From assembly GCA_905250025.1 (NCBI GenBank), contig CAJNOJ010000027.1:124001-188000 (forward strand): DNA of 64,000 bases. The letters are read 5' to 3'. The stretch comes from Adineta ricciae. Lineage: Eukaryota; Rotifera; Eurotatoria; Adinetida; Adinetidae. This document shows, one piece after another, positions 1 through 27,000 of this stretch (its first letter is position 1; each line of letters starts with the position of its first letter). The notes beneath the pieces were generated by a model. The model did no database searches. It had not been told where the DNA came from and saw only the letters and a list, made by a program, of their open reading frames with translations. Both the position numbers and the translations under genes were made by a program.

Positions 1-785
1 TCTTACATGCTGTGCAATGACCCTTGATTACTTTTTCTATTTCTACATGTATTACCAGTAGGCGCGGCCTGCTTTATTTTCATTTGAAAAGCGTTCTTAT
101 CAATTTTACACAAATAAAGAAAAAGGCTTTTCTGCTTCATTGTTCATCAGCTAGCTGATTTAGACACAATTAGTATCAGTTTTATGAAAATCTTCAATTG
201 TACTTTATACAGTAGAACATTTCGAAGCATCACGCCCATAGTGCGTTTTCTTTCTCGTATCGAAGGTTATTCAAATCGATTTCAACTAGTTCTGCAACCG
301 ATGAAAAGAAAATCCACTGTGTAATACCTATCTGTCAAGTCGAATAGTCATCAACAACACCCATCTGTTTCAATTTAGTAATCAGATACCTATCGACTTT
401 AATCTATACATATAATTATTTGTCTTTTGGTTATTTATGATTACACTTATTATTCTCATAACATTCACGCCGTTATCTGAATACAGACGAAAAATATGAC
501 TTGTGTGGGCAACCGAGGAAGCAAACAAATTGTATTTGACTGTGTCCCGTGATATGTTGACTAAGGACTAAAGCAAGAAGCAAAAGAAAATAATACCTTT
601 TTCTTTTATTATTGCCTATTGATAATCACCAGAGTCCCACGGTATACCTTTTCTTTCATTCTTGTTGATTATTCAGTTCGACATACACGTTCTCAATTTT
701 GCATAAAATATTTGTTTTACAATGTTTCCTTCTCATAAGCAGCACTGTTTCTTCCGTATTTTTCACATTTTCAAGATCCTCATCG
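1..785. other. Non-coding stretch, copy 1
   Basis: No convincing coding sequence. By analogy with copy 2 this should be the region downstream of an ACADM gene lying left of the window. It aligns with 15215-15995 with many substitutions, as expected for unconstrained DNA. Confidence 0.6.
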
Positions 786-2100
786 ATGGAGGCAGACCAA
801 CAAGACTCAGCAAGACCATCATTGCATCTCGATACTCTTCAACTACCGAATTCTCATGAGATTGAAATTAGCGACCGACAACGAAGATCTTCCGTGAGTA
901 TTGACCTCAAATCTATATTAACGCATTCTGCTTACGCACTTCTCTTGTAAGAATACCAAACGCTTCGGTTCCTTGTCTTACCGATTGAAGACAAAAGAAA
1001 AATCAAGTTACTATCATGGATGATGATGATAACGTATAAGCGTCCTACTCATGTACCGTCTTTTTCATATTTTGCGTACAGAATGCAAAAAAAAAGAAAA
1101 AGAAATCGAAAGAGAGAAAAAAGAGCACCCTAGGCAGATATCACAGAGCGTATTTTCGTTCGAGCGCGACGATGAAGTGTACATAGGCAATATACTTCCA
1201 AAGATATGTAACTTTCGCGCTACTCCTTTGGTTCTCAGTTCTGAAATACACGTCTGAAAAAAATTGCACGAATCATCAACCTAAAGCACGTACTTTTCTC
1301 TTTCTGCGGTTCTCTTCTGATTTCTCGACCGATTGTCCTTCGCGAATGGCGCACATTTGCATATACATTGATTTTTTCCCGCGTCATTTCTTCGTGAGAC
1401 TAGAGGATTGTTTTTTTCCATCGTTAACTGCTAGTATACCGAGATAAGATATTTTGTAATCGATCACAAAGGGTAATCCAACTAGTTAGAAAGCAGAACT
1501 CGTCATTTAATTGAGACATCGATCTATTGTTGATATTGAAGCACTGTAGATTTCTAACAGAAAGGGACAAAACATAAGCAGGTGACATGAGTGCTAATTG
1601 ATTGTATAGATGATATTTATTGACAACGATACGCTTCATTAATAGATTCATAGCGAAATACAAAAAGAAATATGTCTTCAGACGATCCACATGGTATTGA
1701 AACGGCAGGTGTAAGTTTGTTTATTATCATTTTGAATCGATGTTGATTACTGATTCTTGCACAGAAACTCAACTTTTTTTCTCTTTACTAGCCTGCTCTG
1801 TTCGATCGAGACCGTGAAGGATCGGAGTCCGAACGACAGACTTGGAATATCAAACAGCATATACCTTCAGCTATGCGTGCTCCCGACCGATCAGTACGTA
1901 TATCTTTCGAATATGGGACTTTTTATATCGAGATATTTTCTTTAGAGACCACCGAACTTTCTACTGGATGTTCGATTTTATTCAATGAAGAAGACAGCTA
2001 TGACTTTGATGTGCTTATTGGTAAGAAACCGACTGAAGTTAAAACAGAACAGTCTAAAGACAGACACGTATGTCACGATCTTGCTATTAGCAGTCATTGA
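786..2100 (+). CDS. Unresolved multi-exon coding locus upstream of the small membrane protein gene (copy 1)
   Basis: Not recognised. An open stretch begins at ATG 786 and ends at a good donor (GTGAGT, 894). A second conserved open stretch containing ATG 1669 reaches a GTGTAAGT donor, then continues from an acceptor at about 1793 through an acidic segment to a stop at 2100. A long intron (about 894-1650) would join the first two in frame, with an acceptor just before the second stretch. Copy 2 keeps both frames, but the first exon has accumulated amino-acid changes, so coding status is moderate. It may be a separate gene or the 5' part of the gene at 2259; exon boundaries are not settled. Confidence 0.35.
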
Positions 2101-2258
2101 CGTCGTTTCAATACTAACCTTGCATATGATGCAATTGAATAGCGACAAAATAATAATTATGATATTATCAGTAGTCATAAAGAAAGGAATATGTCTTTCT
2201 ATTTCCAGAGCAGAAGAAAAAGAAGAAGAAGATTTGATAATTCTCGTCTATTTCCTAG

Positions 2259-2897
2259 ATGATCATCATGAGTAACAGTGTTCAACTCAAACATGTACTC
2301 AAACAAGGTTCTTCACATCCCTTCTATGGCACTCAAGTTTCATTAGGAATTATTTCGGTATTGATGTGCACCTCAATAGGTAAGCGGCATTTGTTTTTCT
2401 GGTTTCGCTTCTCTCTCTCTTTCTCTATGTTTTCGAGTTTTGAACAGTTCGATCTCGTTAAATCAGTCGTAATCATATCCTACCTTCCCTTGACGGTTTC
2501 TAGGCTGTATCCAATTGTATACATTTCTCTTTACTTGGCATGATCATCTCCTATTGCCATCCAGTTTTACGGCAAATTTGACACGTTATGATCAACTTCT
2601 TATCGTACTTCCAGCTATTTTAACAATTCTACTGTTCTTATTTGATGCAACATTTCTTGCGATTATGTTTCAGTTTTAATAGACGAAAAGAAAAAAACAC
2701 GAATCCAAATAAAGAACTTTTAGTTAAACATTCTTGTTTTGATGTCTTATGTTTTAGGTGTGGTTCTCATGTATGTCATGCGAGTCGATTTCAATGATCA
2801 ATACAAACATCCTAAACTTGATTATATAGACAATTGTGTCATATGTCTGCTCTTCATTCTGGGCATCTTTAACATCTTTATTACTGCATGCAGCTAG
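2259..2897 (+). CDS. Small multi-pass membrane protein (copy 1)
   Basis: No family recognised. The first exon (2259-2379) has two in-frame Met codons and ends at a GTAAGC donor. The next exon starts after TTTCTAG and joins in phase. Hydrophobic segments follow in order: one across the splice (SLGIISVLMCTSIG onward), one at about 2605-2670 (LLIVLPAILTILLFLF), and a third in a downstream open stretch (CVICLLFILGIFNIF) ending at TAG 2895-2897. The link between the second and third segments is unclear: the second exon meets a TAA near 2677 and I found no splice that keeps phase, so the last segment may be a separate exon or non-coding. The 371-bp identity tract shared with copy 2 covers this part. 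Confidence 0.5.
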
Positions 2898-3419
2898 TGC
2901 AGTTCGTTTACGTCTCCCAAATGCATAATGTAGAATCTTAGGGTGTCTTTCGTTCTTCTTCTTCTTCTTGCTCTACTGTTTGTTCTCTTTTTCATTTTTT
3001 ATGATTTATGTGTAGACAAATCAAGATATACACATATCAACAAATTTGTATTAAAACTTTCAAGTCAGAAAGCAAAGCATCCTTCCTAATCACATATTTG
3101 CCGTGAGCATTCAAATAGACTCACTGTGTGTACAAAGCGAACTTCGCTGTATTGTATAGCTTGACCCGTGTTGATAGCGACATCTTTTAACACGTTCGAT
3201 TGTGATTGGTGCATGTTATTCTATCGAATGAAATCTAAGGTCTTGTCATTCGTATGCCTTTGTACTCATGCGTTGAATTTATCTAATACATTTAATTCCA
3301 GAATAGCTAATATATTTGCTTGAAATCTGCAAAGTTTCATATGGTAGAGGTATTTATTTCGAAAGTAAAACAAACTAAATTGGGTTATTTTTGAAATTTT
3401 CATTCAGACAGATTCGAAC
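2898..3419. other. Intergenic, upstream of SMARCB1 copy 1
   Basis: AT-rich, with a CTT run near 2955-2970 that is shorter in copy 2. No open exon with splice sites seen. It presumably holds the membrane-protein 3' UTR and the SMARCB1 promoter; an acceptor-like TTTTCATTCAG lies just before the start codon. Confidence 0.5.
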
Positions 3420-4970
3420 ATGGCATCAGCCAAAAAATCAACAGCAGCACCTAATCCACTATTAAAGACATATGGTGAACGGCCTGCTCCGTTTCAATTT
3501 CCTGATAGTCAGGAGAAAATGTATATTGGATCTGAAGTACGTTCTATTTGATTTGTTTATTGAAAAATTTCATCGTATTTTTAGGTCGGTAATTATCTAC
3601 GGTTATTCCGCGGAACACTGTACAAGAAGTATCCATCGCTATGGCGTCGAATGATAACATTAGAAGAGCGTAAATGGCTAATTGAATTAGGTTGTTCAGA
3701 ATCATCATTACCAACAAACTTAACGTTATTACGCGCAAATGAAGTTGATGAGATTTTAAATGGTGACGACGAAAAATACCGTGCTCTAACTTTAAATAGT
3801 GAATCGTCGTCAGCACGAGCGTAGGAATCTCACTCTGTTTGTGTATGGTAAAAAGAATTGTTTTGTTTTAGTGATAAATCGAAACGTTCAACATGGTTAC
3901 CAACATTCCCAACCAATTCGCATCATCTCGATGCTGTGCCTGCTGCAACACCTATCAATCGAAATCGAACATCAACAAAAAAGAAAATATTTCCTTTATG
4001 GTACGCACTCGCCTTTCCCTCGTTCTGTTTGTCTACATGGCAAATGTTCTAGTTTTGATTATACAGACACAGCTTCTGCTTTGGAAAATTCTCAACAATC
4101 AGAAGATCTTGTCCCTATTCGACTTGACATGGAAATCGAAGGGCAAAAGTTACGCGATACATTTACATGGAATAAGAACGGTGAGACAAACTGAAATACA
4201 CTTCATTCGAATACTCTGCTTTGTTTTCTTTAGAACAATTGATCACGCCAGAATTGTTTGCGGAGATCCTTTGCGATGATTTAGATCTGAATACAGTGGC
4301 GTTTGTACCTGCCATAGCACAAGCTATTCGTCAACAACTTGAATCGCACCATAATGACTTTCTCGAAGATAATAGCGACCAAAGGATTACAATTAAAGTA
4401 GGATGACTTCGACGTTAGTTTGACATCACTTTTATTCTTTCCGTGTAGTTGAATATCCATGTGGGAAATGTCAGTTTAGTTGATCAATTCGAATGGGATA
4501 TGTCGGATAAACACAATAGTCCTGAAGAATTCGCTCGTGTATTAGCATCCGAATTAGGTAATTGAAAAACTGAAAGCACTTTTCGAGGAAAATATTTCTG
4601 CATGTATCCAGGACTTGGCGGTGAATTCGTTACTGCAATAGCTTACAGTATTCGCGGTCAACTTAGTTGGCATCACAAAACTTTCTCCTATAGGTAAGTT
4701 ACATTGATTGAACGATGGATAATATCGAAAGTTCTTATCTAGTGAAACGCCAATGCCAACTGTTGATGTTGCTACGCGAACAAATCATGATGCTGAGCAA
4801 TATTGTCCATTTCTGGAAACGCTTACGGATGCGGAAATGGATAAGAAGATTCGTGACCAAGATCGGAACACAAGGTATAGATCTAATTGGCTGAATAATC
4901 AACAAATGAATCGTGCTTGTCTTTGTTTAGACGTATTCGTCGTTTGGCAAATACTGGTTCAGCTTGGTAG
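3420..4970 (+). CDS. SMARCB1: SMARCB1/SNF5/INI1, SWI/SNF core subunit (copy 1)
   Basis: Core subunit of the SWI/SNF (BAF) chromatin-remodelling complex, nuclear. Nine exons can be placed: 3420-3536, 3585-3820, 3872-4000, 4053-4180, 4234-4397, 4449-4557, 4612-4693, 4743-4874 and 4931-4970, giving about 378 residues, close to the 385 of human SMARCB1. The N-terminal winged-helix region is followed by a conserved linker ([17 protein letters not shown]). The two SNF5 repeats then carry hallmark stretches: [26 protein letters not shown] and [12 protein letters not shown] in repeat 1, and [19 protein letters not shown] and [13 protein letters not shown] in repeat 2. The C-terminal coiled region ends in [10 protein letters not shown], matching the conserved SMARCB1 C-terminus. 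All introns are 48-56 bp. No disabling change. Confidence 0.97.
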
Positions 4971-5032
4971 ACCTAATTGTATCTTACACTTTCTTGTTGT
5001 TATTAGTTTGTCTTCGTCAAAATTTCTTTGTG

Positions 5033-5038
5033 AATAAA
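5033..5038 (+). terminator. Polyadenylation signal AATAAA, SMARCB1 copy 1
   Basis: First AATAAA after the SMARCB1 stop (62 nt downstream), conserved in copy 2 at 20259-20264. Confidence 0.55.
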
Positions 5039-5864
5039 AACTTAATAAACATATAGCGATCAATACGCAGCTCTGGATATAATCTACAGGTTATCAGTCG
5101 AAATATAGTGATGGTCCAACGTGCTTTTGTCATTAGAAATTAGAATTATTCGAGAGTAGATAACAGTATGGTTCGCCGCAAACTCAAAGTTATACTGAAG
5201 TGAAATCTATGATGTGACGATTAATCTGCATACATATTACACTCATAAGTCAAGTTGACAAAATACTTTGATATAGATACAAAACAGCCGATTGTATTGA
5301 GTCATTATTATTTATTCGCGAATATAATTGGCGAAAATACGATAATATATTTAACTATAATTCAATCTGTTATTAGTAATCAAATATTCGAATATAAACT
5401 AAACAATGTCTCAGCAAAAGTCCGAGGCAATAACGAAGATATGCTTGATAATGTATCATTTTGTTATTATTCTTTTCGTCTGTCATACAAATCATCAGCA
5501 TTGATTAGCCGATTTTTCCTATACGTCATCAGTATCTCTTTCCAAAACGATATCGTCTTCGTCTTCTGTTTGATTTGACTGACTGTCTATTAATAGATAA
5601 AACTGATTGACAAATTCCTTTTCCCTTCTCTTCCTTTTCGCCCCATTGTCTTTGTATTGGTTCAGATTTTAATCCAATCATTATCAAGGAAATATTTGTA
5701 ATCTGATGACTAATAAATCATCAACTGTAGCTTGCATATGTGCTTATTTTGTCGTTTTCTGCTAAAACTTGTTTTGTCTATCACCACGAACCTGTAGTGT
5801 AATCATTCGATCGTTCATATCGAGCGCGTCTTGTTTTTGTATATTGGAAAATCCAACGTCATAG
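5039..5864. other. Intergenic, SMARCB1 to CLASP (copy 1)
   Basis: AT-rich and without supported genes. An open frame at 5255-5578 shortens and changes in copy 2, so I do not call it. The segment presumably contains the CLASP promoter. Confidence 0.5.
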
Positions 5865-7690
5865 ATGGCAGAGAATAAAACTCTCGGCGATTTTTATCAG
5901 AGTGTTACGTCAAAAGAGCCAAGCGTACGGTTAGAGTGTTTTTCAGCACTGGAAAATTTATTATCAGACAGTGAAACATCAGTTGACTGCGATGATCTAC
6001 CTGGTTTTATAAATGGTTTAATTAAATGGATCGAAGGCAGTAATTTCCGAGTAGGAGTTCCTTTTTTTTCTTACATATTGGTTTAATGAAAGCTCGAGAT
6101 TCTATTTAGATTGCAACTAATGGTTTGCGAACGTTAGAATTACTTCTCGATCGATTAGGTTCGGATGAGTTCGGACACTATGTTGAACAAGGTATAACAC
6201 CATCTTCCTTTTTTTCGATTGGTATCCGAAAAAATGATGATACGTGTTACATTTAGTTACATCTGCAACAGTCGATCGTTTGGGCGATGCTAAAGATCAA
6301 GTAAACTCAACTATGTCAAAAGTCAATTATCGTAACACTAGCTTGATTTAGGTTCGAGAAGCTGCATCTAATCTTCTTATCAAATTAATGACCACTTATA
6401 CTCCTCAGGTATTCGTTCTTTTAATATCAGTGAAGATACTATTCGATTCTTTGTAGCGTATATGGGATTTAATACAACCATTAGCATTTGATAGTAAACA
6501 ATTTCGTATCAAAGAAGAAAGTCAACGCGTATTAATACGATCATTAGAAGAGTACGTATTTGAGCTAAGCTGACTTACTGCTTGATAGTAGAACTGGAAG
6601 GAAGGAGGAAAAGAAGAAGAAGATCTTATCGTTCCTATCGACCTTTTTTTCTTACCCGAAAGTGATTTGTTATTGTAACAATCGACTGCGGTTTTATTCG
6701 ACATAAAGCAATCATTTCGATGATAAACAAACATATGTTTGTATGCTCTATAATTGAGCATATACAATCAACTATTTGAGTCTCTCTTCTTCATGTTTTT
6801 TTCTCATTCTCATAGACACGTTTTGTATATGTCTGCGTCCTTCTGTCATCATTAATATAAAAAAAGGATAATATAAGAACAAAGTGAAAGAAATGTAAGG
6901 ACAACTGTTGAACGGTCAGCAACTCTATGAAGTATCAAACATTATAAGAGAACGAAAGAAGCGTAGATAGAAGAAGAGAGAGAGAAAGAAAATATACTAT
7001 TGTGACTATCTAATTGACTGCGTTGAAATATACTGTTCGTCAGTTCTTCTATCACATTCAACGCGTGGTAACCTTCTGAGTAGGAAAGGCTAGAACTTAT
7101 TGCATTAATGATTAATCAAAGATGACAACGATGAAACGAACTTCGATCTTCGAGTAAGTTCATTACAAAATGATTTTTTTGTTATTGTCATCGTGTCCCT
7201 GAACGTTCGCCTTGAATGTAAAAGCTAATTTAATAACGACGAAAGAAATTGATCTTTTCATACTAATAAGTCATTGAAACCTTGCCGTAATGTCTTCATT
7301 ACAGTTTCTTTTTGAAAACTAAGTATACTTTTATGACGACATACCTTGACTCTTGTTCGTTCAAGCACGAATGTGTAACTTCATTGATGTGTCTGTGCAC
7401 AGAATGTTGGACAGCGTACTGTGTGTGTATGCTATACAAACAGATAGAGATATAATGATTGTTAGAGTGCATTACGCAAGATGTAAATGACATATTTCTC
7501 TCGCTAACGATAGCCATCGCCTTTTCTTCTGTCTATTTAATCCAACTGCGTAGTATTATCGTAGTGGATTTCGATCATTTCTTTGTCTTGTCGTCTGTTG
7601 TGAGTTTCTTTCGACTGAGTTAATTTCCCTGGTCAATAGACAAGAAAGGATCAGAAATTATCCGAGTGCTATCAATATTCTTTAATTGAT

Positions 7691-7725
7691 ATGAAACGTA
7701 CCTCGCCCACGCAGATCATTAATAA
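7691..7725 (+). other. Candidate alternative first coding exon of CLASP (a), copy 1
   Basis: A 35-bp exon inside the large intron between the fourth-fifth part of TOG1 (ends near 6552) and the exon at 7815. It starts with ATG, encodes MKRTSPTQIINK and ends at GTAAGTG. Its phase matches the acceptor at 7815, giving MKRTSPTQIINK joined to FGASTIQL. Copy 2 (22909-22943) differs by one synonymous change (CGT to CGC). Confidence 0.5.
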
Positions 7726-8456
7726 GTAAGTGAATTGTAAATCACTTCGATTTCTCGCTTTGTTTGATTTGCATGGAAATCATGAGAAAATGTTGAACCT
7801 ATTTGTTTTTCAAGATTCGGTGCATCGACAATACAATTGAGTAAACTCGTTCCACTGATTTCAAAACTAATATCCGATTCGAATGGTGCTGTAAGTATAT
7901 CTCTGATCAAATTAACCTTACGGATTGTGTTCGATCGTTTTTTCATTAGGTTCGTCAGCAAGCGGTAGATACTCTTGTCGAAATTTATCGTCATGTTGGA
8001 GAGAAAGTTCGTAGTGATATTGCTAAACGAGATATTCCTGAAGCGAAGTAAAATACGAATCTCTGTTCGTCTTGTTAACTTACTTGACGCTCTGATCTGT
8101 GTGTAGATTGAAACAATTGTACGAAAAATTTGATGATGTTATTGCCAGCGGTCGAATGATTGCTAAAGCGTCGGATGCAACTGATGATGGTAAGTTACAC
8201 CTTGTCTTCGACCGAATTTTTGACTCTTAATCAAACTGAAAGATCAGACTTGTATTAACTCAGATATCGAAAGTGTAACGATAGAAATCACGATAAGATG
8301 AGAGCGAGAGATAGACGAAAAAAAGTGCGAAACGAGGGAGGCATACATTGAATATGTAGATACATAGGTGGATATATATGTATATGTACAAGTGACAGTG
8401 TACGTTAGTATTGTACTTGAACTTTTCGAAGTTAGGTATTTGCCTGAGCTGAAGCA

Positions 8457-8604
8457 ATGGATTCGTCTTTATTTGAACGGTTTTTCGATTCGACATCGAC
8501 TCATTTTCAGTTGCCGACGTTGAATGAAGAAGAAAATGATGAAGTCTATCCGTTGCTTCATATTGAATTCTATCGGTTAAATAAAACACGACAATTATTA
8601 ATAG
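8457..8604 (+). other. Candidate alternative first or cassette exon of CLASP (b), copy 1
   Basis: 148-bp open exon beginning MDSSLFERFF and ending KTRQLLI at a GTATAT donor, lying in the intron after TOG1. It joins in phase 1 to the exon starting CACGACCG (ARPKPTTTR). An in-frame TGA lies just upstream of the ATG. An acceptor-like AG two bases before the ATG would also allow use as an in-frame cassette. Copy 2 (23677-23824) differs in five codons, four of them synonymous, which is a coding signature. Confidence 0.6.
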
Positions 8605-9757
8605 GTATATAAGAAAACTTCGTTTCATATGTAAAGTTGTCTTATTTATTCTCACTTTTTTCCTTTATCAAATTCTAATCGATTCGTTGAACCTCGAAAT
8701 TGATTTCTCTTTCGTCCATTCTTTTCATACACATGTACATCCATCAGCGCTTCATTTTTTCTTTTCTTTCTTCTTCTTCTTTTCAATTCCATCTAAGGTA
8801 TCAATGATCGTTTATATGCACATGTGTAATTTGTATTGATATTCAAATTCAATCAATAGTCAAAAAAGAGAACGAGAGTGAAGTAGAATGAACATGCCCA
8901 TAGTAGAAATGTTTTTAACGAGTAAACCTCGTAAGATCACTGAACTTGTTGTGATAGTTTCTTATTTGCAAAATTTTTCGTTTCAGCACGACCGAAGCCA
9001 ACAACAACTCGATCTCGTTTGAATTCAGATAGTAGTACAACATCGACGCGTTCACGGCCAAGTGGTGGTGTACCAGCTCGATCAGCTGCACCTGTCTCTG
9101 CAGGTAATTACACGGCAAACATTCCTTTTCAGCTTTGATCGTATAAGACATATGAGCAAATGTAGTTTCATCTCCTAATAACCCTCGTGCGCGTTCATCG
9201 TCGAGTATTTCTCGTCCATATGCATCGACATTATTCACAACAGGAGGTATTATTATTATCATCATCTTTCTTTTGTTCTGCGGTGTCGTCTCTCCATGCT
9301 GTTGTTCTATCTATACTAGTCATCTTACAACACGCGTTTTTGTTATTGTTTGCTTCAGTCATGTGTACAGTTATTGCATGATGATGTAAGATAGTGATCA
9401 GACAAAGAATAGAAGATTATCCTAAAAATATTGAATGGTTTGATTAAAAAAAACAGAAAGCGAAAAATGCATTTCTTTGTTTTTAGCTGTGGCAAGCGGT
9501 GCTGTCGATGAAGCAATCTTCGAAGAGGCATTCAAGTCATCCCCTGCAATCTCTGTAAGAATGATAACTTTGACCTATTGTAATCTAAGATGTGAAAACA
9601 TTTACTTATATGTCAAATATCCCATCTGGCAAAAATATCGAGATTATCTCATCAAGTCCATTGAATCCTGAAGATATTTTTTTTTAATTTCAGCTGTCAT
9701 CGGGCAAAGATGTCGAAAATCAATTATCAACTATTCGAGATACACTCGCCGACACGA

Positions 9758-9758
9758 N
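9758..9758. other. Ambiguous base at the copy 1 breakpoint
   Basis: A single 'n' sits at the exact position where copy 1 stops matching copy 2. It interrupts a CLASP exon; downstream sequence bears no relation to CLASP. This looks like an assembly join or a one-base gap rather than a natural polymorphism, though a real rearrangement breakpoint is possible. Confidence 0.9.
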
Positions 9759-10547
9759 TGTTCGCATTTCCGAAATAATTATCACTGTACGCTTGTCTAT
9801 TATAGTCATTTGAGATGAACGTTACGATCAAATTATTCTTAGTCATTCTCTAATCGAACTACTTGATAAAAATAGAACTTTATAAGATAATTTCCCTTCT
9901 TACGTGCGAATGTTTTCTCTCTCATTTAAAAGCATATCGATGTATAATGTGGCAAAAGCTTTTAAGCATGTTCATTCAGTCTGTGAATAGATATGGAAAA
10001 TAACTGAAGCATTACTTAACATGTTCAATGATATGGAGTTCGAGAGAATAGTCATCGCTGAAGTTCGACAATGAATTTTAAGTGCATCCATCTGTTCTCA
10101 TCAGGTTCCAATGGCTAACACATGCTTGAACAGTGAAATGCTTTTAAAGGAGCTTTTTCTCCAAAAACAAAACCGCTCGTTGTCTGTTTGAACAGAATTT
10201 CCTGGATGGCATGTCACCTTATTCTTTGTAGTTGATTATCTGCACAGACTTGCAAGTATTTATACAATAATTAATCGGTGTTTTCATTGTAAAGCTTCTT
10301 AGTGACTGTAACATATGGAAAACGAGACATTTTTTAGTATTTAGTTTTGTTCTTGTTGATAATCACATATATCAAAAAGAAGAAGAAAAAAGACGAGGAA
10401 AATTCGGTAATAGAAAAACAAATAGAACACGTCTTTTTTTTTCTCTACTAGTTTTGTTGAAAGATTAAACTAATAAAAGGAAAAACACAACAGTGAAACT
10501 TTCTTTTTTCATCCTAATCGTGTCGTTTGGAATGTTTTTTCGGTTTT
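9759..10547. other. Intergenic, breakpoint to TOMM70 3' end
   Basis: Unrelated to CLASP or to copy 2. It contains no supported gene. It probably holds the TOMM70 3' UTR and the downstream neighbour sequence of whichever haplotype this part belongs to. Confidence 0.5.
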
Positions 10548-12987
10548 TTAAACTATTCCACCACCACCCATCCAATTAGCCAAACCGCCAGCTGGAGGAA
10601 AGCCACCTGGAAAATGTAAACTAAGACGTTTAATTGCTCGCCCTTGAGCACGAATTGCATAGAGTAACGCAGCATATTGCAGCAGTTTCTCATCACCGCG
10701 AGTACATTTTATTGCACGTTCATACAATTTTGCGGCTTCTTCGAAATCATTTCTAGAGAAAGGAACAGACATTGCGATCGAAGTTGAAGTTAAAAAGATG
10801 AACAAACCGATTGCATTTGAATATGGCAAACATTGTCAGAACAGTTTCGTTAGAACGATCGATTCGAAGTGCGTCGACAAAGAGTTCTTCTGCCTCAGCA
10901 TTGTTCGATGGATCAGTTGACATTAAACAATTCCTGAACAATAGATTCAAATTAGATGCTAAAATACGATGCCCGAGAATATAGAAATTATCCAAGAGGA
11001 AACTAACGTTAAGTACTCATACATGCTAGTAAGCAGTCGACCGTGCTGTCGAGAACATTTTCACACGTTTTTATTTTAAGAGTATTAAATTATCATGTTT
11101 TATCGTATACATACGCTTTTAGAGCCATTAGGGTTGGATTGTTCGGTATTTCTTCCACGAATCGATTCAGATAATGGAGTGCTTTGTCTTTTCGATCGTT
11201 ATCCAAATAACACTAAAGGAGAATTGAAGGAAATTTCTTAGTGGAATTTTTTGCGGAGACATATTTACGGATGTGATTGCCAGGGCATAGTAAATATCCT
11301 TTTTACATGAATCAAAATATTCTTCAAAGCTCGCCAGGGCTTGTTCAACGCGCTCAGGCCGATTTTCCTTAGCACCGATTTTAGCGTCGTTAATGAGTTT
11401 TTGATATTTTGCACGAAGATTTGTTGGAGTAATGTTTAATGCCTCGGTGAAATCTTCGTGAGCTTCCGAATAACTTTCCAATAGAGTTTTTAACTAGATA
11501 AGAAATCGAATGAAACCAATGTGAAATCAACAGAAGAAAAAAGGCGAACCATTCCACGATGAACACGTGGCGAACATTCAAATGGATGATTGTTGATACA
11601 TTGATCATATTCTTGTAAAGCTCCTTCGAGATCACGTTGATGAATCTTCGTATTTGCTCGTTTCAGCTCAGCGTTGAGTTTCAACTAGATATTTACAAGT
11701 ACAACAATAGACTAACTCATTTATTGCGAAATCTCACATTTTCTGATGCTTCTGGATTGCTGATCACTTTGTTGAAGTCATCGAGGGCTTCAGCATAGTT
11801 TCCCATTAGTAAATAGAACGAACCACGTAGCAGCAATGCTTCTAATTCGTACGTTGATGTTTCCGAAGACTCGATTTCTTGTGTACACAACGATGGAATG
11901 TCAGTGAATCGACCCTCGTCGAATGCTTCATAAGCACGTGCTAGTGAACTGTCGGGTTGACTGCTACGCACTTCGTCGATGAACGTTTCACTAATCGTCG
12001 GATCATTTTCGAATTCGTTGAGTGATGTACGAACAAAATCTTTCGATAATTCAGCGGTGCTCTACGTTCCAATAAAGAGTTAACAAAATCTTAATGAGTT
12101 TGTCACTTACAGGAGGTAAAGTTTCGATATAACGTTTAGCTAGTTCAGTGAGAACTTTATCCGCAGCCATTATATAAGCTGGTTGATATGAATCAATAAA
12201 GCATACCGTTGAATAATCTGTGAACAGTCAAGAAGGTGAACGATGCCTTTCTTCTCTCAGAGATAAGACGTACCTTCGAGAGCTAGTTCGAAGTTTTCGA
12301 TTGTTTCAGCTGCACGAGCACGGCGTTGGATGCATTTGATATATTTAGGATTGAGTTCAATAGCTTTAGAACAATCTTCAATAACTTTCGCATAGTTTTT
12401 CTGAATGATAGAAGTAAATTTCTCAGCACAAGCAGTCAAAATGTATCTTACCAATGATTCCCAAGCAGCAGCACGATTCTGATAGAACTGTGCAAGTTCC
12501 TCTGTCGATTCTGGTGGGCAAGTTTCAATTGCTTCTACAAACAGAACATATCAGAAAATTAGTCACGATTTATCGTTTATTTTCAGACCTGTATAAAATT
12601 CAATTGCTTCATTAAATTTCTGTTCACGATATTTAACATTGCCTTCATTCTTCAATTCAATAGCGGATGTCAAACGATTCTAAATATGAAAATACAATTT
12701 AGGCAAACAAATTGTTTCCATTGACAAACCGTTGCTCGACCATCTGATGTTGTCGCTGAGGTGTCTCTTTCACCTCGGGCTAATGGCCTAGGTAATGACG
12801 AACGTCGAGGAGTTGCCGTTCTATTCTGTTTCTGTCGGTATATTAAATACGCTGTAACGCATACCGCAGTGGGTACCCCGATGATTAACGCCCATTTGGC
12901 TATGCGTTTGCCTAGATCATTAGCTGGATTATTTGAATTCGCTGTTGCCGATGACGTTTCTGCAACTTTGCGAAGATAGGACGCCAT
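10548..12987 (-). CDS. TOMM70: TOM70-like mitochondrial import receptor
   Basis: Outer mitochondrial membrane receptor that takes Hsp70/Hsp90-bound preproteins (carriers and others) to the TOM channel. The start (12987) gives MASYLRKVAETSS and is followed at about residues 28-50 by a single hydrophobic anchor (WALIIGVPTAVCVTAYLIY) with basic flanks, the N-anchored TOM70 layout. After a short basic linker come the TPRs. The first reads AIELKNEGNVKYREQKFNEA (clamp-type), later ones include AKVIEDCSKAIELNPKYIK, EALLLRGSFYLLMGNYAEA, GALQEYDQCINNHPFECSP and AAKLYERAIKCTRGDEK. At least eight short introns interrupt it. The C-terminus ends with a Gly/Pro-rich tail (FPPAGGLANWMGGGG). It is divergent from ACADM with 219 bp between start codons. 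The last intron, near 10755-10840, uses a GTTTGT donor. Confidence 0.9.
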
Positions 12988-13066
12988 TACTAAATTGAAG
13001 ATAAAACAAGAACGCTTGTAGAAAAAGCCAACTTTTACACACACCTTTTACATGAAGGTCGTACTA

Positions 13067-13122
13067 ATTGGTATAGAGAAGAACCAATAAAATTTGGTGA
13101 ATTTTTCTCCTCTGATGATTGG
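13067..13122. promoter_or_regulatory. CCAAT-box cluster in the TOMM70/ACADM divergent promoter
   Basis: Three CCAAT pentamers lie within 56 bp: ATTGG at 13067-13071, CCAAT at 13084-13088 and ATTGG at 13118-13122. All sit between the two divergent start codons (12987 and 13207). Such clusters are typical NF-Y sites in bidirectional promoters. Both genes are nuclear-encoded mitochondrial genes, so shared control is plausible (inference). Confidence 0.5.
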
Positions 13123-13206
13123 TAGTCCATTGTTTCTCGTTAACATTTTTCGGGTTCAAAGTCTCTCATTTCATTTTTTCGACTCGTCAAATTAAAACTA
13201 ACAAGC

Positions 13207-15174
<1,968 letters not shown>

Positions 15175-15995
15175 ACATTCATTCAATTCAATTTTCTTCA
15201 AGTGCCTCAATCGTTCTTACATGCTGTGCAATGACGCTTGATTACTTTTTCTATTTCTATATGTATTACTAGTAGGCGCAGCCTACTTTCTTTTCATTTG
15301 AAAAGCGTTCTTATAAATTTTACACAAATAAAGAGAAAGCGTCTGATTCATTATTCATCAGCTAGCTGATTTAGACACAACCAGTATCAGTTTTATGAAA
15401 AATTTTCAATTGCACTTTATACAGTAGAACATTTCGAAGCATCACGACCATAGTGCATTTTCTGTCTCGTATCGAAGGCTATTCAAATAGATTTCGACTA
15501 GTTCTGCGACCGATGAAAAGAAAGTCCGCTGTAATACCTATCTGTCAAGTCGAATAGTCATCAACAAAACACATCTGTTTCAATTTGGTAATCCGATACC
15601 TATCGACTTTAATCTATCCATATAATTATTTGTCTTTTGGTTATTTATGATTACACTTATTATTCTCATAGCATTCACATCGTTATCTGAATACAGGCGA
15701 AAAATATGACTTGTGTGGGCAACTGAGGAAGCAAACAAATTGTACTTGATTGTGTCCCGTGATATGTTGACTAAGGACTAAAGCAAGAAGCAAAAGAAAA
15801 TAATACCTTTTGTGTTTATTATTGCCCATTGATAGTCGTCAGAGTCCCACGGTATACTTTTTCTTTCATTCTCGATGATTATTCAGTTCGACATATACTT
15901 TCTCAATTTTGCATAAAATACTTGTTTTACAATGTTTCCTTCTCATAAGCAACACCATTTCTTCCATATTTTTCACATTTTCAAGATCCTTATCG
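15175..15995. other. Non-coding stretch at the start of copy 2
   Basis: Downstream of ACADM; aligns to 1-785 from 15215 on. No supported gene. Confidence 0.6.
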
Positions 15996-17322
15996 ATGGA
16001 GGCAGAACAACAAGACTCAGCAAGACCATCATTGCATACCGATACTCTTCAACTACCGAATTCTCATGAAATTGAAATTAGCGACCGACAACGAAAATCT
16101 TCCGTGAGTATTGACCACAAATCTCTATTAACGTATTCTGCGTACGCAGTTCTCTTGTAAGAATACCAAATGCTTTGGTTCCTTGTCTTACCGATTGAAG
16201 ACAAAGAAAAATCAAGTTACTATCATGGATGATGATGATAACAACGTATAAGCGTCCTGCTCATGTACCGTCTTTTTCATATTTTGCGTACAGAATGCAA
16301 AAAAAAGAAAAAGAAATCGAAAGAGAGAAAAAAGAGCACCCTAGGCAGATATCACAGAGCGTATTTTCGTTCGAGCGCGACGATGAAGTGTACATAGGCA
16401 ATATACTTCCAAAGATATGTAACTTTCGCGCTACTCCTTTGGTTCTCGGTTCTGAAATACACGTCTGAAAAAAAAATGCACGAATCATCAACCTAAAGCA
16501 CGTACTTTTCTCTTTCTGCGGTTCTCTTCTGATTTCTCGACCGACTGTCCTTCGCGAATGGCGCACATTTGCATATACATTGATTTTTTTCCCGCGTCAT
16601 TTCTTCGTGAGACTAGAGGATTGTTTTTTTCCATCGTTAACTGCCAGTATACTGAGATAAGATATTTTGTGATCGATCACAAAGGGTAATCCAACTAGTT
16701 AGAAAGCAGAACTCGTCATTTAATTGAGACATCGATCTATTGTTGATAGTGAAGCACTGTAGATTTCTAACAGAAAGAGACAAAACATAAGCAGGTGACA
16801 TGAGTACTAATTGATTGTATAGATGATATTTATTGACAACGATACGCTTCATTAATAGATTCATAGCGAAACACAAAAAGAAATATGTCTTCAGACGATC
16901 CACATGGCATTGAAACGGCAGGTGTAAGTTGTATTTTCTTGTTTATTATCATTTTGAGTCGATTTTGATTACGGATTCTTGCACAGAAACTCAACTTCTT
17001 TTCTCTTTACTAGCCCGCTCTATTCGATCGAGACCGTGAAGGATCGGAGTCCGAACGGCAGACTTGGAATATTAAACAGCATCTACCTACAGCTATGCGT
17101 GCTCCCGACCGATCAGTACGTATATCTTTCGAATATGAAACTTTTTATATCAAGATATTTTCTTTAGAGACCACCGAACTTTCTACTGGATGTTCGGTTT
17201 TATTCGATGAAGAAGACAGCTATGACTTTAATGTGTTTATTGGTAAGAAACCGACTGAAGTTAAAACAGAACAGTCTAAAGATAGACACGTATGTCACGA
17301 TCTTGCTATTAGCAGTCATTGA
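15996..17322 (+). CDS. Unresolved multi-exon coding locus (copy 2)
   Basis: Counterpart of 786-2100. ATG 15996 opens a stretch ending at the same GTGAGT donor. The second open stretch begins near ATG 16885 and has the same GTGTAAGT donor, with a few extra bases in its intron. Frames are kept but several amino acids differ, which is weak evidence of constraint. Product unknown. Confidence 0.33.
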
Positions 17323-17477
17323 CGTCGTTTCAATACTAACCTTGCATATGATGCAATTGAATAGCGACAAAATAATAATTATGATATTATCAGTAGTCAT
17401 AAAGAAAGGAATATGTCTATCTATTTCCAGAACAGATGAAGAAGAAGAAGATTTGATAATTCTCGTCTATTTCTTAG

Positions 17478-18122
17478 ATGATTATCATGAGTAACAGCGT
17501 TCAACTCAAACATGTACTCAAACAAGGTTCTTCACATCCCTTCTATGGCACTCAAGTTTCATTAGGAATTATTTCGGTATTGATGTGCACTTCAATAGGT
17601 GAGCGACACTTGTTTATTTTGTTTCGTTTCTTTCTCTCTCTCTCTCTCTCTATGTTTTCGAGTTTTGAACAGTTCGATCTTGTTAAATCAGTCGTAATCG
17701 TATCCTACCTTCCCTTGACGGTTTCTAGGCTGTATCCAATTGTATACATTTCTCTTTACTTGGCATGATCATCTCCTATTGCCATCCAGTTTTACGGCAA
17801 ATTTGACACGTTATGATCAACTTCTTATCGTACTTCCAGCTATTTTAACAATTCTACTGTTCTTATTTGATGCAACATTTCTTGCGATTATGTTTCAGTT
17901 TTAATAGACGAAAAGAAAAAAACACGAATCCAAATAAAGAACTTTTAGTTAAACATTCTTGTTTTGATGTCTTATGTTTTAGGTGTGGTTCTCATGTATG
18001 TCATGCGAGTCGATTTCAATGATCAATACAAACATCCTAAACTTGATTATATAGACAATTGTGTCATATGTTTGCTCTTCATTTTGGGCATCTTTAACAT
18101 CTTTATTACTGCATGCAGTTAG
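17478..18122 (+). CDS. Small multi-pass membrane protein (copy 2)
   Basis: Counterpart of 2259-2897 with the same first exon, donor (here GTGAGC) and hydrophobic segments. From 17701 to 18071 it is base-for-base identical to copy 1, including positions after the TAA that look non-coding. The 3' end has the same uncertainty as copy 1. Confidence 0.5.
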
Positions 18123-18641
18123 TGCAGTTCGTTTTCGTCTCCCAAATGCATAATGTAGAATCTTAGGGTGTCTTTCGTTCTTCTTCTTGCTCTACTGTTT
18201 GTTCTCTTTTTCATTTTTTATGATTTATGTGTAGACAAATCAAGATATACACATATCAACAAATTTGTATTAAAAGTTTGAAGTCAGAAAGCAAAGCATC
18301 CTTCCTAATCACATATTTACCGTGAGCATTCAAATAGACTCACTGAGTGTACAAAGCAAACTTCTGTATTGTATACCTTGACTCGTGTTGATAGCGACAT
18401 CTATTATCAAGTTCGATTGTGATTGGTGCATATTATTCTATCCAATGAAATCTAAGGTCTTGTCATTCATATGCCTTTGTACTCATGTGTTGAATTTATC
18501 TAATACATTCAATTCAATCCCAGAATAACTAATATATTTGTTTGAAATCTGTAAAGTTTCATATGGTAGAGGTATTTATTGCGAAAACAAAACAAACCAA
18601 ATTGAATTATTTTTGAAATTTTCATTCAGACAGATTCTAAC
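18123..18641. other. Intergenic, upstream of SMARCB1 copy 2
   Basis: AT-rich, several indels relative to copy 1. No supported gene. Confidence 0.5.
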
Positions 18642-20196
18642 ATGGCATCAGCCAAAAAATCAACAGCAGCACCTAATCCCCTATTAAAGACATATGGCGA
18701 ACGGCCTGCTCCGTTTCAGTTTCCTGGTAGTCAGGAGAAAATGTATATTGGATCTGAAGTATGGTCTATTTAATTTGTTTATTGAAAAATTTCATCGTAT
18801 TTTTAGGTCGGTAATTATTTACGGTTATTCCGCGGAACATTGTACAAGAAATATCCGTCGTTATGGCGTCGAATGATAACATTAGAAGAGCGTAAATGGC
18901 TAATTGAATTAGGTTGTTCAGAATCATCATTACCAACAAACTTAACGTTATTACGCGCAAATGAAGTTGATGAGATTTTAAACGGTGACGATGAAAAATA
19001 CCGTGCTTTAACTTTAAATAGCGAATCGTCGTCAGCACGAGCGTAGGAATCTCACTCTGTTTGTGTATGGTAAAAAGAATTGTTTTGTTTTAGTGATAAA
19101 TCGAAACGCTCAACATGGTTACCAACATTCCCAACTAATTCCCATCATCTCGATGCTGTGCCTGCTGCAACACCTATCAATCGAAATCGAACAACAACAA
19201 AAAAGAAAATATTTCCTTTGTGGTACGCTCTCGTCTTTCCTTCGTTCTGTCCGCCTGCCTACATGGCAAATGTTCTAGTTTTGATTATACAGACACAGCT
19301 TCTGCTTTGGAAAATTCTCAACAATCAGAAGATCTTGTTCCTATTCGACTTGACATGGAAATCGAAGGGCAAAAGTTACGCGATACATTTACGTGGAATA
19401 AAAACGGTGAGACAAACTGAAATGCACTTCATTCGAATATTCTGCTTTGTTTTCTTTAGAGCAACTGATCACGCCAGAATTGTTTGCGGAGATCCTTTGT
19501 GATGATTTAGATCTGAATACAGTGGCGTTTGTACCTGCCATAGCACAAGCTATTCGTCAACAACTTGAATCGCATCATAACGACTTTCTCGAAGATAATA
19601 GTGACCAAAGGATTACAATTAAAGTAGGACAACTTCGACGTTAGTTTGACATGACTTGTATTCTTTCCATGTAGTTGAATATCCATGTGGGAAATGTCAG
19701 TCTAGTGGATCAGTTCGAATGGGATATGTCGGATAAGCACAATAGCCCTGAAGAATTCGCTCGTGTATTAGCATCTGAATTAGGTAAATGAAAAATTGCA
19801 AACACTTTTCAAGCGAAATATTTCTGTATGTATTCAGGACTTGGCGGAGAATTCGTTACTGCAATAGCTTACAGTATTCGCGGTCAACTTAGTTGGCATC
19901 ACAAAACTTTCTCATATAGGTAAGTCACATTGATTGAATGATGGACAATATCGAAAGTTATCATCTAGTGAAACGCCAATGCCAACTGTTGATGTTGCTA
20001 CGCGAACAAATCATGATGCTGAGCAATATTGTCCATTTCTGGAAACGCTTACGGATGCGGAAATGGATAAGAAGATTCGTGACCAAGATCGTAACACAAG
20101 GTATTGTTCTAGTTGGCTGAATAATCAACAAATGAATCGTGCTTGTTTCTATTTAGACGTATTCGTCGTTTGGCAAATACTGGTTCAGCTTGGTAG
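18642..20196 (+). CDS. SMARCB1: SMARCB1/SNF5/INI1 (copy 2)
   Basis: Same nine-exon structure and signatures as copy 1, from ATG 18642 to TAG 20196. The two proteins differ at only a few residues (for example PDSQEK versus PGSQEK near residue 28, and TSTKKK versus TTTKKK). Many silent and intronic differences are seen, showing purifying selection on both. Both copies could be expressed as alleles or paralogues. It keeps [29 protein letters not shown] and the C-terminal NTGSAW. Confidence 0.97.
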
Positions 20197-20258
20197 ACCT
20201 AATTGTATCTTACACTTTCTTGTTGTTATTAGTTTGTCTTCGTCGAAATTTCTTTGTG

Positions 20259-20264
20259 AATAAA
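20259..20264 (+). terminator. Polyadenylation signal AATAAA, SMARCB1 copy 2
   Basis: Same position relative to the stop as in copy 1. Confidence 0.55.
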
Positions 20265-21082
20265 AACTTAATAAACATATAGCGATCAATGCGCAGTTCT
20301 GGATATAATCTAGTTTATCAGCCGAAATCCAGTGATAGTCAAACATGCTTTTGTCATTAGAATTATTCGACAGTCGATAATAACACGATTCATCGCAAAC
20401 TCAAAGTTATACTGAAGTGAAATCTATGATGTGATGATTAATCTACATACATATTAGATCCACAAGTCAATTTGACAAAATACTTTGATATAGATACAAA
20501 ACAGCCGATTGTATTGAGTCATTTAGCATTTATTCGTGAATATAATTGGCGAAAATACGATAATATATTTAGCTAAAATTCAATCTGTTATTAGTAATCA
20601 AATATTCGAATATAAACTAAACAATATCTCAACAGAAGTCCGAGGCAATAACAAAGATATGCTTGATAATGTATCATTTTGTTATTATTCTTTTCGTCTG
20701 TCACACAAATCATCAGCATTGATTAACCGATTTTTCCTATACGTCATCAGTATCTCATTCCGAAACGATATCGTCTTCTGTTTGACTTGACTGACTGTCT
20801 ATTAATAGATAAAACTGATTGACAAATTCCTTTTCTCTTTCCTTCTTCTTCTTTTTCGCTCCATTGTCTTTGTATTGGTTCAGATTTTAATCCAATCATT
20901 ATCAAGGAAATATTTGTAATCTGATGACTAATAAATCATCAACTGTAGCTTGCGCATATGTGCTTATTTCCTCGCTGTCTCTGAAAACTTGTTTTGTCTA
21001 CCACCACGAACCTGTTGTAATCATCCGATCGTTCATATCGAGCGCGTTTTGTTTTTGTATATTGGAAAATCGAACGTCATAG
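20265..21082. other. Intergenic, SMARCB1 to CLASP (copy 2)
   Basis: Aligned to 5039-5864 with substitutions and indels; no supported gene. It should hold the main CLASP promoter. Confidence 0.5.
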
Positions 21083-24000
21083 ATGGCAGAGATATCATCA
21101 ACGGCAGTGAATAAAACTCTCGGTGATTTTTATCAGAGTGTGACGTCAAAAGAACCAAGCGTACGATTAGAGTGTTTCTCAGCACTCGAAAGTTTATTAT
21201 CAGACAGTGAAACATCAGTTGATTGTGATGATCTACCTGGTTTTATAAATGGTTTAATTAAATGGATCGAAGGCAGTAATTTCCGAGTAGGAGTTCCTTT
21301 TTTATCTTACATATTGGTTTAATGAAAGCTCGAGATTCTATTTAGATTGCAGCTAATGGCTTGCGAACGTTAGAATTACTTCTCGATCGATTAGATTCGA
21401 ATGAGTTCGGACACTATGTTGAACAAGGTATATCACCATCTTTTCTTTTAACGGTATCCGAACAAATGATGATACGTGTTGCATTTAGTTACATCTGCAA
21501 CAGTCGATCGTTTGGGTGATGCTAAAGATCAAGTAAACTCAACTATGTCAAAAGTCAATTATCTAACACTAGTTTGATTTAGGTTCGAGAAGCTGCATCT
21601 AATCTTCTTATTAAGCTAATGACCACTTATACCCCTCAGGTATTCGTTCTTTTCATATGAGTGACGACACTATCCGATTCTTTATAGCGTATATGGGATT
21701 TAATACAACCATTAGCATTTGATAGTAAACAATTCCGTATCAAAGAAGAAAGTCAACGCGTATTAATACGATCATTAGAAGAGTACGTATTTGAACTAAG
21801 CTGACTTACTGCTTGATAGTAGACCTGGAAAGAAAGAGGAAAAGAAGCAGAAGATCTTATCGTTTCTATCGACCTTTTTTTTCTTACCCGAAGATTATTT
21901 GTTATTGTAACAATCGACTGCGTTTTTATTCGACATAAAGCAATCATTTCGATGATAAACAAACATATGTTTGCATGCTCTATAATTGAGCATATACAAT
22001 CAACTATTTGAGTCTCTCATACTCATAGACACGTTTTGTATATGTCTGCGTCCTTCTGTCATCATTAATATATAAAAAAAAGGATAATATAAGAACAAAG
22101 TGAAAGAAATGTAAGGACAACTGTTGAACGGTCAGCAACTCTACGAAGTATCAAAGATTACAAGAGAACGAAAGAAACACAGATAGAAGGAGAGAGAGAG
22201 AAAGAAAAGATGCTATTGTGACTATCTAATTGATTGCGTTGAAATATACTGTTCGTCAGTTCTTCTATCACATTCAGCGCGTGGTAACCTTCTGATTAGG
22301 AAACGCTAGAACTTATTGCATTAATGATCAATCAAAGATGACAACGATAAAACGAACTTCGATCTTCGAGTAAGTTCATTACAAAATGATTTTTTTTTGT
22401 TATTGTCATCGTGTCCCTGAACGTTCGCCTTGAATGTAAAAGCTAATTTAATAATGACGAAAGAAATTGATCTTTTCATACTAATAAGTCATTGAAACCT
22501 TGCCGTAATGTCTTCATTACAGTTTCTTTTTAAAAACTAAGTATACTTTTATGACGACATACCTTGACTCTTGTTCGTTCAAGCACGAATGTGCAACTTC
22601 ATTGATGTGTATGTGCACAGAATGTTGGACAGCGTACTGTGTGTGTATGCTATACAAACAGATAGAGATATAATGATTGTTAGAGTGCATTACGCAAGAT
22701 GTAAATGACATATTTCTCTCGCTAACGATAGCCATCGCCTTTTCTTCTGTCTATTTAATCCAACTGCGTAGTATTATCGTAGTGGATTTCGATCATTTCT
22801 TTGTCTTGTCGTCTGCTGTGAGTTTCTTTCGACTGAGTTAATTTCCCTGGTCAATAGACAAGAAAGGATTAGAAATTATCCGAGTGCTATCAATATTCTT
22901 TAATTGATATGAAACGCACCTCGCCCACGCAGATCATTAATAAGTAAGTGAATTGTAAATCACTTCGATTTCTCGCTTTGTTTAATTTGCATGAAAATCA
23001 TGAGAAAATGTTGAACGAATTTGTTTTTCAAGATTCGGCGCATCGACAATACAATTGAGTAAACTCGTTCCACTGATTTCGAAACTTATATCTGATTCGA
23101 ATGGTGCTGTAAGTATATCTTTGATCAAATTAACCTTAAGGATTGTGTTCGATCGGATTTTCATTAGGTTCGTCAACAAGCAGTCGATACTCTTGTCGAA
23201 ATTTATCGTCATGTTGGAGAGAAAGTTCGTAGTGATATTGCTAAACGAGATATTCCTGAAGCGAAGTATAATATGAATCTCTTTTCGTCTTGTTAACTTA
23301 CTTGACACTTGGATCTGTGTGTAGGTTGAAACAATTGTATGAAAAATTTGATGATGTTATTGCCAGTGGTCGAATGATTGCTAAAGTGTCGGATGCAACT
23401 GATGATGGTAAGTTACATCTCGTTTTCGACCGAATTTTTGATTCTTGATCAAACTGAAAGATCAGACTTGTATTAACTCAGTTATCGAAAGTGTAACGAT
23501 AGAAATCACGATAAGATGAGCGAGAGATAGGCGAAAAAAAGTGCGAAACGAGGGAGGCATACATCGAATATGTAGATATATAGGTGGATATATATATACG
23601 TATATACACAAGTGACAGTGTACGTTAGTATTGTACTTGAACTTTTCGAAGTTAGGTCTTTGCTTGAGCTGAAGCAATGGATTCATCTTTATTTGAACGA
23701 TTTTTCGATCCGACATCGACTCATTTTCAGCTACCGACATTGAATGAAGAAGAAAATGATGAAGTCTATCCGTTGCTTCATATTGAATTCTATCGGTTAA
23801 ATAAAACACGACAATTATTAATAGGTATACAAGAAAACTTCGTTTCATATGTAAAGTTGTCTTATTTATTCTCACTTTTTTCCTTTATCAAATTCTAATC
23901 GATTCGTTGAACCTCGAAATTGATTTCTTTCTTCGTCCATTCTTTTCATACACATGTACATCCATCAACGCTTCATTTTTTCTTCTTTTTCTTCTTCTTT

Positions 24001-27000
24001 TCAATTCCATCTAAGGTATCAATGATCGTTTATATGCACATGTGTAATTTGTATTGATATTCAAATTCAATCAATAGTCAAAAAAAGAGAACGAGAGTGA
24101 AGTAGAAAGAACGTGCCCATAGTAGAAATGTTTTTAACGAGTAAACCTCGTAAGATCACTGAACTAGTTGTAATAGTTTCTTATTTGCAAAATTTTTCGT
24201 TTCAGCACGACCGAAGCCGACAACAACTCGATCTCGATTGAATTCAGATAGTAGTACAACATCTACACGTTCACGGCCAAGTGGTGGTGTACCCGCTCGA
24301 TCGGCTGCACCTGTCTCTGCAGGTAATTACACGTCAAACATTCCTTTTCAGCTTTGATCGTATAAGAAATGTGAGCAAATGTAGTTTCATCTCCTAATAA
24401 CCCTCGTGCGCGTTCATCGTCGAGTATTTCTCGTCCATATGCATCTACATTATTCACAACAGGAGGTATTATTATTATCATCATCTTCCTTTTGTTCTGC
24501 GGTGTCGTCTCTCCATGCTGTTGTTCTATCTATACTAGTCATCTTACAACACGTGTTTTTGTTATTGTTTGATTCCGTCATGTGTACAGTTATTGCATGA
24601 TGATGTAAGATAGTGATCAGACAAAGAATAGAAGATCATCCTAAAAATATTGAATGATTTGACTGAAAAAAAAAGAAAACGAAAAATGCATTTCTTTTGT
24701 TTTTAGCTGTGGCAAGCGGTGCTGTCGATGAAGCAATCTTCGAAGAGGCATTCAACTCATCCCCTGCAATCTCTGTAAGAATGATAACTTTGACCTATTG
24801 TAATCTAAGATGTGAAAACATTTACTTATATGTCAAATATCCCATCTGGCAAAAATATCGAGATTATCTCATCAAGTCCATTGAATCCTGAAGATATTTT
24901 TTTTAATTTCAGCTGTCATCGGGCAAAGATGTCGAAAATCAATTATCAACTATTCGAGATACACTCGCCGACACGAATAATGATTGGGAAAAACGTGTCG
25001 AAGCAGTAAGAACATTTCAAACATTGATATGTCTTACTTGTGTTGATAATCCATTTTCTAGTTGAAACGACTACGTTCGATTGTAACCGGTGGCGGTGAT
25101 CAGTATGATGAATTTTTTCGTAATCTTCGTCAACTTGACCTACCTTTGGTCGCAACCGTCAAAGACTTACGCTCACAAATTGTTCGTGAAGTTTGTATTA
25201 CTCTTGCATTCATGTCAATACGACTGACCAATCGATTGGAACGAACGGCTGAATGTGTTCTTCCTGCAATGTTAAGCCTGATTCAGAATAGTGCTAAAAT
25301 AATGGCGACAAGCGGTGCTGTTGCTTTACGTTACATTGTAACCAATACACAATCGAGTAAACTAATTCCGTTGATATTGACGGGAATTGAATCAAAATCA
25401 AAAGATATTCGAAGGTGATTTGACTTCTGTTTTCTATCTTGAAGAAGATTTTATCTTCAATGTTCTAGACAAGCTTATGAACTGATAGTCATTATGCTCT
25501 CCCATTGGGATTTGGTCTACATGGAAAAATATGGCCAATTACTTCATGATGCGATTAAAAAAGGCCTGTCCGATGCTGATGCAGAAGCAAGATCGAATGC
25601 TCGCAAAGCATTCGGATCATTTCGTGACCAATTTCCAACATTAGCTGACGTACTCCTTGCGTCATTGGACTCATCGAAAAAGAAAACATTAATGGTTTGT
25701 TGGAAATTCATGAAATTTCTCTGAGAAGTTCTCAATCGTTGTTATAGGGTGAAATGAGTAATGCATCCAGTACACATTCATTGGCGAGTGTTGGTAGTTC
25801 AAGAATACGTAGTGCAAAAGAGTAAGTCAAGTTAAGCGACAGACGACTTGTTATATGTGCAACTAATTCTTTAGAACGGGATCAAAACAAGTGCGAAGAG
25901 AGAGTGTTGGTAAGATATTAATTATAGAGCTAGACAAGAACAAATTGTTCAAATTAAACACTATGATCTAGATAAACAAGGTTCATCGAGTAGTCTTGCT
26001 CGGTCATCAAGTGCGAATGAACTTGCTCTACGCCAAAAGAGTTCATTATCAAACAGTACGTTTCTTCGTGCGCCGCATTTCAATAACTAGTCTTCTTTTT
26101 AGGTTTGAATGCAACGAGTATTCCAACAAAGACCAGTAAATATTAGTGAACAAGATTTGAATTGTCTACTATCTCTGATTTGTTCAGGTCGAACTCGATA
26201 CCTTCCTCAACAATCGGGTGTAGTAAAATCTACTTCAACTACATCACGTCCACCCCAAACGGTTTCCCAATCTCAACCGGGCAGTCGTTCAACATCACCG
26301 AATTCATTGCGATTGTCATATCTATCGTCAACCCGCACGCCAACTAATACCCGCTCGCGGATACCAGTTGGTTCCAACGGAGGTTCACGAATATCAAGTC
26401 GAGAATCAAGTCCAGGACGGACAAGTACGTACTTCTTCTAAACTCTTTTTTTCGACTCTGTTCATATGTGAAAGTTAAAAAAGTTGACGGTTCAATACAC
26501 TCAGACATTTTTCAGCTTTGTCTTCTAATGGTATCAGCGGTAATAGACGTCGATCAGGACGTAAGTTTAGTGTAGGAAAACCTGTGTACATTTATGTTGT
26601 GTGCTAACATCGTAGTTGTGATCTATTGATTAATATGAAACTGATCAACTGTTCTCGACTGAAATGCATGAATTTTTATTTTACAGGATCGTTTGGTTAC
26701 CGAGGACCAGGAAGTGATTATGGCGATCATGGCAATCAACGTCGTGTTAGTGGTTCTTGGTATGGTGACAGCGGAGATGATGCATCCGAAACGTCAAGTA
26801 TTTGTTCGGAAAGATCATTGGAAGTATGTGTTTTCGTTTTGAAAGTGCTAGTTTATTATATTCGAATCAAATTAGGATATTGCGGACGTATTACGTCGTA
26901 TGTCAAGTAATGAATGGGCTGAACGTAAAGAAAGTTTATCCAGTTTATACCATATGATTCGTGCTGGTCGTGCATTTAGGTAGAGCATGATTCGATTATG

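Follow-up and report, generated by a model that had tools for sequence, protein, structure and literature searches.

False heterotype duplications are recognised, in the part of Ko et al. (2022, Genome Biol., PMC9516828) drawn on here, by a gap between the two copies, half depth, discordant pairs and one-copy k-mers. Bdelloid rotifer assemblies contain arrangements of a related kind. The 2013 assembly of Adineta vaga held 25 allelic blocks on one scaffold, 23 of them palindromes and 2 tandem, as re-counted by Nowell et al. (2018, PMC5916493), and for a second assembly of that species a single palindrome is given in the consulted portion of PMC7749112. In the 2018 assembly of A. ricciae, homologous blocks stand in tandem on scaffolds ARIC00305 and ARIC00659 (Nowell et al. 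2018, PMC5916493), and the same authors suspect scaffolding errors where breaks in collinearity cross gaps. The pipeline listed for that assembly, in the sections of the paper used here, comprised Platanus, SSPACE, GapFiller, SSPACE-LongRead and Redundans (PMC5916493).

The locus described here lies on contig CAJNOJ010000027.1 (C27; 635,175 bases) of an A. ricciae assembly of 130,461,839 bases in 1,033 contigs. The window, that is, the whole 64-kb stretch of DNA analysed, corresponds to C27:124001-188000, and gaps and repeats were examined over C27:1-288000. A stretch of 15 kb is doubled in this sequence, and the window truncates the repeat. Very probably the assembly has set two alleles of one locus end to end, making the doubling an artefact rather than a real duplication. 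With the false heterotype duplications of the portion of PMC9516828 used here it shares the gap mark; half depth, discordant pairs and one-copy k-mers are read-based criteria. Like the blocks on ARIC00305 and ARIC00659, the two copies are homologous, run in the same direction and share a bdelloid scaffold. It has in common with the A. vaga 2013 arrays that putative allelic copies share a single scaffold, but the present copies point the same way and meet at an assembly gap. Repeats of this kind, with alleles in direct orientation on a bdelloid scaffold, have been drawn into the debate about ameiotic genomes; a case that coincides with a gap mark calls for caution.

Extent and geometry of the repeat

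Self-comparison of the window returned a direct, collinear match between positions 1-9757 and 15215-24976, with 94.5% identity over 9,828 columns, which bears out the original prediction of two collinear copies diverged by a few percent. The repeat edges placed in that prediction at positions 1 and 15215 had to be revised, as they reflect only the edge of the window: when C27:104001-124000 was added, self-alignment extended the match to window positions -5459 to 9757 against 9753-24976, with 94.7% identity over 15,292 columns. The copies measure 15,211 and 15,218 bases, lie head-to-tail in direct orientation and abut with no intervening sequence, copy 1 ending and copy 2 beginning at the N itself (Table 1). 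This N, the sole one in the window, thus lies exactly between the members of a duplicated pair on one scaffold.

Global alignment of the two copies yielded 680 mismatches in 15,144 aligned bases (4.49%), of which 494 were transitions and 186 transversions, together with 40 indels, none longer than 19 bp. When the alignment was divided into 31 bins of no more than 500 columns, identity between the copies ranged from 92.4% to 99.6%.

Table 1. Positions of the copies, their junction and the gene features named in the text. Negative window positions lie left of the window.
Feature	Position in window	Position on C27	Strand	Basis or remark
Copy 1	-5453 to 9757 (within window 1..9757)	118547-133757	+	self-alignment with flank
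Single N, contig-contig junction	9758..9758	133758	.	self-comparison, alignment
Copy 2, complete in window	9759..24976	133759-148976	+	alignment
Acyl-CoA dehydrogenase (ACADM) exon, copy 1	left of window	123275-123724		assembly search
SMARCB1 exon, copy 1	3585..3821	127585-127821	+	assembly search
Putative CLASP exon, cut by N in copy 1	9694..9757		+	start read by eye from splice acceptor
TPR-containing exon, copy 2	11717..12061		-	TPR_1, under curated cut-off; name TOMM70 from the original prediction
Acyl-CoA dehydrogenase (ACADM) exon, copy 2	14488..14940		+	Pfam PF00441, PF02771
SMARCB1 exon, copy 2, INI1 DNA-binding domain	18807..19043		+	same protein as copy 1; Pfam
CLASP region right of join	25000..28000		+	no second near-identical place listed in assembly

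Three other accounts of the layout were rejected. Chance is ruled out as the origin of a repeat of 15 kb at 95% identity, and a spacer of 5.4 kb between the copies does not exist, since positions 9759-15214 already belong to copy 2, of which they form the first third. A palindrome is excluded by the direct orientation of the copies, which is not the inverted arrangement of bdelloid allelic palindromes; the sole exact inverted repeat of at least 30 bp in C27:1-288000 is one of 33 bp, located elsewhere than the pair.

The only other repeat listed in the self-comparison of the window was a coding tandem array at 48670-49821, with 9.1 copies of a 126-bp unit (93% matches) in a frame open over 426 residues; the units presumably resemble those of kinesin-light-chain-type TPR proteins.

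Genes and substitutions in the two copies

The original prediction had copy 1 halting in mid-CLASP at an ambiguous base, and copy 1 does stop at the N, after the first 64 bases of a putative exon whose start is preceded by ttttaatttcag. Copy 2 runs on beyond the corresponding point of this exon, and the next long frame to the right of copy 2 (25062-25418) matches CLASP_N in Pfam. Among the best candidates scored, the CLASP region right of the join had no near-identical second place in the assembly, matching itself and three pieces of C219 at 69-82%; these three pieces are probably an ohnologue.

Searching the assembly with the SMARCB1 exon gave two matches, which lie on C27 and encode the same protein sequence, so that the predicted lack of a lesion in either SMARCB1 copy stands for this one exon of 237 bp. 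Left of position 1, where the original prediction had suggested looking for ACADM, an exon of this gene is indeed present, with 98% identity in protein. The ACADM exon had two near-identical matches on C27 and a partial match of 54% on C3 in the assembly search. Also inside the pair, the frame at 12670-13047 had no match in Pfam.

Coding substitutions were counted in frames selected as having neither indels nor a stop in copy 1, at least three synonymous changes, and a pS more than three times pN, and the five of these with a Pfam match were used. They differ at 69 of 1,464 bases (4.7%), with 53 synonymous and 16 other changes in a set pre-filtered for that same ratio. The uncorrected values of pS and pN were, respectively, 0.134 and 0.009 for the ACADM frame 14488-14937, 0.226 and 0.043 for the ACADM frame 13409-13552, 0.174 and 0.019 for the TPR frame 11720-12061, 0.173 and 0.013 for the TPR frame 12260-12550, and 0.163 and 0 for the SMARCB1 frame 18807-19043. 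As the list of frames had been filtered for pS above three times pN, the synonymous excess is a weak point, to be taken as a consistency check and not as a test of selection; it would fit two working alleles, as expected.

Gap marks on C27 and allelic divergence

The examined stretch of C27 carries five gap marks (74 N in all), of which four consist of one N and the fifth of 70, and the two flanks of each mark were compared. Flank-to-flank overlaps were found at three of them, of 15 kb at C27:133758, of 151 bp (100%) across the 70-N run, and of 221 bp (100%) across the N at C27:236212. The marks at 9294 and 54305, two of the five, had no flank-to-flank overlap, which counts against a misjoin. 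Outside the 15-kb pair and the 126-bp coding TPR array, the exact direct repeats of at least 60 bp in C27:1-288000 were of 104, 151 and 221 bp, and all three end exactly at a gap mark, the latter two as clean overlaps across the gap. Lowering the threshold to 30 bp added three further direct repeats (35-50 bp), all in the region of diverged repeats near the left end of C27.

In the RPL10 frame (PF00252) at C27:235652-236467, a single N separates two identical stretches of 221 bp, so that about 74 codons near the C-terminal end occur twice. An XPG_N-containing frame (PF00752) at C27:232834-233205, which we take to be ERCC5-like, likewise has its beginning doubled exactly, over 151 bp, across the 70-N run. 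As an exact doubling of 74 residues of a ribosomal protein at an N is not credible biology, it points to overlapping contig ends that were left unmerged, and both the RPL10 and the XPG-like doublings are false duplications of this origin. The repeat of 104 bp has its copies 4.7 kb apart, at C27:49529-49632 and 54201-54304, with the second ending at the N at 54305; it is probably another contig-end defect.

The diverged repeats at the left end of C27 occupy 528-6054 and 8902-9318 (about 72-78% identity), and near them lies a frame that encodes Ig I-set domains and terminates shortly beyond the N at 9294. Repeats and frame are possibly parts of one titin-like gene.

The copies diverge to the degree expected of heterozygosity in this organism: 4.49% compares with a median of 4.55% between separately assembled homologues of A. 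ricciae, in the part of PMC5916493 drawn on here, and with 4.0% in a single control pair from the present assembly. From the same portion of that paper come a mean KS of 0.135, beside which we set the uncorrected pS of 0.13-0.23 in the five frames, and a GC content of 35.6% (PMC5916493); that of C27:1-288000 is 36.8%.

The control pair came from the search with the probe C27:225100-227900, which had two places at 69-74%, on C50 and C138. C50:466744-467543 and C138:26986-27785, 800 bases each, are 96.0% identical to one another (769 of 801 columns) and, judging by this likeness, are probably allelic. Thus near-identical pairs of this divergence exist on separate contigs here, one such pair having been seen. 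Both members are situated some 26-27 kb from a contig end. On the other hand, three DNA probes from C27 outside the 15-kb pair, that of window 25000-28000 included, had no near-identical second place. Overall, one of four DNA probes outside the pair had such a place, and this probe was chosen after the search with C27:225100-227900; separate alleles are therefore not the rule in this assembly, which again counts against a misjoin.

Origin of the doubling

The original prediction favoured a join of two haplotypes, and that reading gains support from the fetched flanks, the other gaps on C27 and the allelic level of divergence, which together argue for a misjoin. The geometry is simpler than in the original prediction: a single overlap between two contig ends, left unmerged, suffices, and a translocation need not be invoked. 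A contig A would comprise the left flank and the segment, and a contig B the segment and the right flank, with an overlap of 15.2 kb represented by different alleles. Because this overlap differs by 4.5% and by indels, it would have been neither recognised nor merged. Read links would then have given the contigs their correct order and orientation, and a negative gap estimate would have led the scaffolder to abut them with one N. That contigs A and B represent different haplotypes, and that the scaffolder followed such a negative-gap rule, we infer. For a negative gap, SSPACE inserts a single n; the literature searched held no support for this rule, and the assembly section of the eLife 2021 paper does not state the scaffolder for the A. 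ricciae sample.

Against the artefact stands the view that the doubling is real. One form of it would be a tandem duplication of 15.2 kb that arose at a CACGA microhomology, took in SMARCB1, ACADM, a TPR gene and the 5' part of CLASP, retained both SMARCB1 copies and has come to differ as much as alleles do; the other, still less likely, would be a genuine linkage of two alleles on the same bdelloid chromosome. Taken as a whole, this view is unlikely. A true local tandem duplication, old enough for 4.5% divergence and with the assembler's break and N falling at its junction, would have the same head-to-tail geometry. The 5-base match CACGA found at both segment ends is of the kind that a microhomology-mediated event could leave, and by chance such a match arose in 0.8-2.2% of 20,000 random position pairs, according to the offsets allowed. 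However, in place of a continuous sequenced junction there is an N, on a contig where three of three other long exact repeats also end at gap marks, and the divergence equals the allelic level. For a junction known to about 15 bases to meet one of five marks in 288 kb, the chance is about 3 in 10,000 by our own arithmetic, uncorrected for hindsight. A tandem duplication is quite improbable, though it is the chief alternative under which the doubling would be real. A real rearrangement between homologues that brought the two alleles together on a single chromosome, a situation formerly inferred for Adineta vaga, would agree with the allelic divergence and with the direct blocks reported in bdelloid assemblies (PMC5916493), but it requires more steps than either alternative, its copies meet at a gap mark, and A. 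ricciae is in print without palindromes and with two tandem blocks, many of the collinearity breaks having spanned scaffold gaps (PMC5916493), all of which makes it most improbable.

As a misjoin, the locus would be biologically ordinary, two alleles of one locus. Gene counts taken from the assembly would probably show two SMARCB1 genes, two ACADM genes and a truncated CLASP.

A further observation concerns another contig of the assembly, C55 (478,188 bases). Near the right end of this 478-kb contig, at C55:464742-469085, a COX1 region with 20.7% GC is present without any N. Its COX1 is readable under the invertebrate mitochondrial code, with 11 TGA codons, and more long frames are found there under that code. 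The region probably reflects a join of mitochondrial DNA to a nuclear scaffold, or else is a nuclear copy of recent origin.
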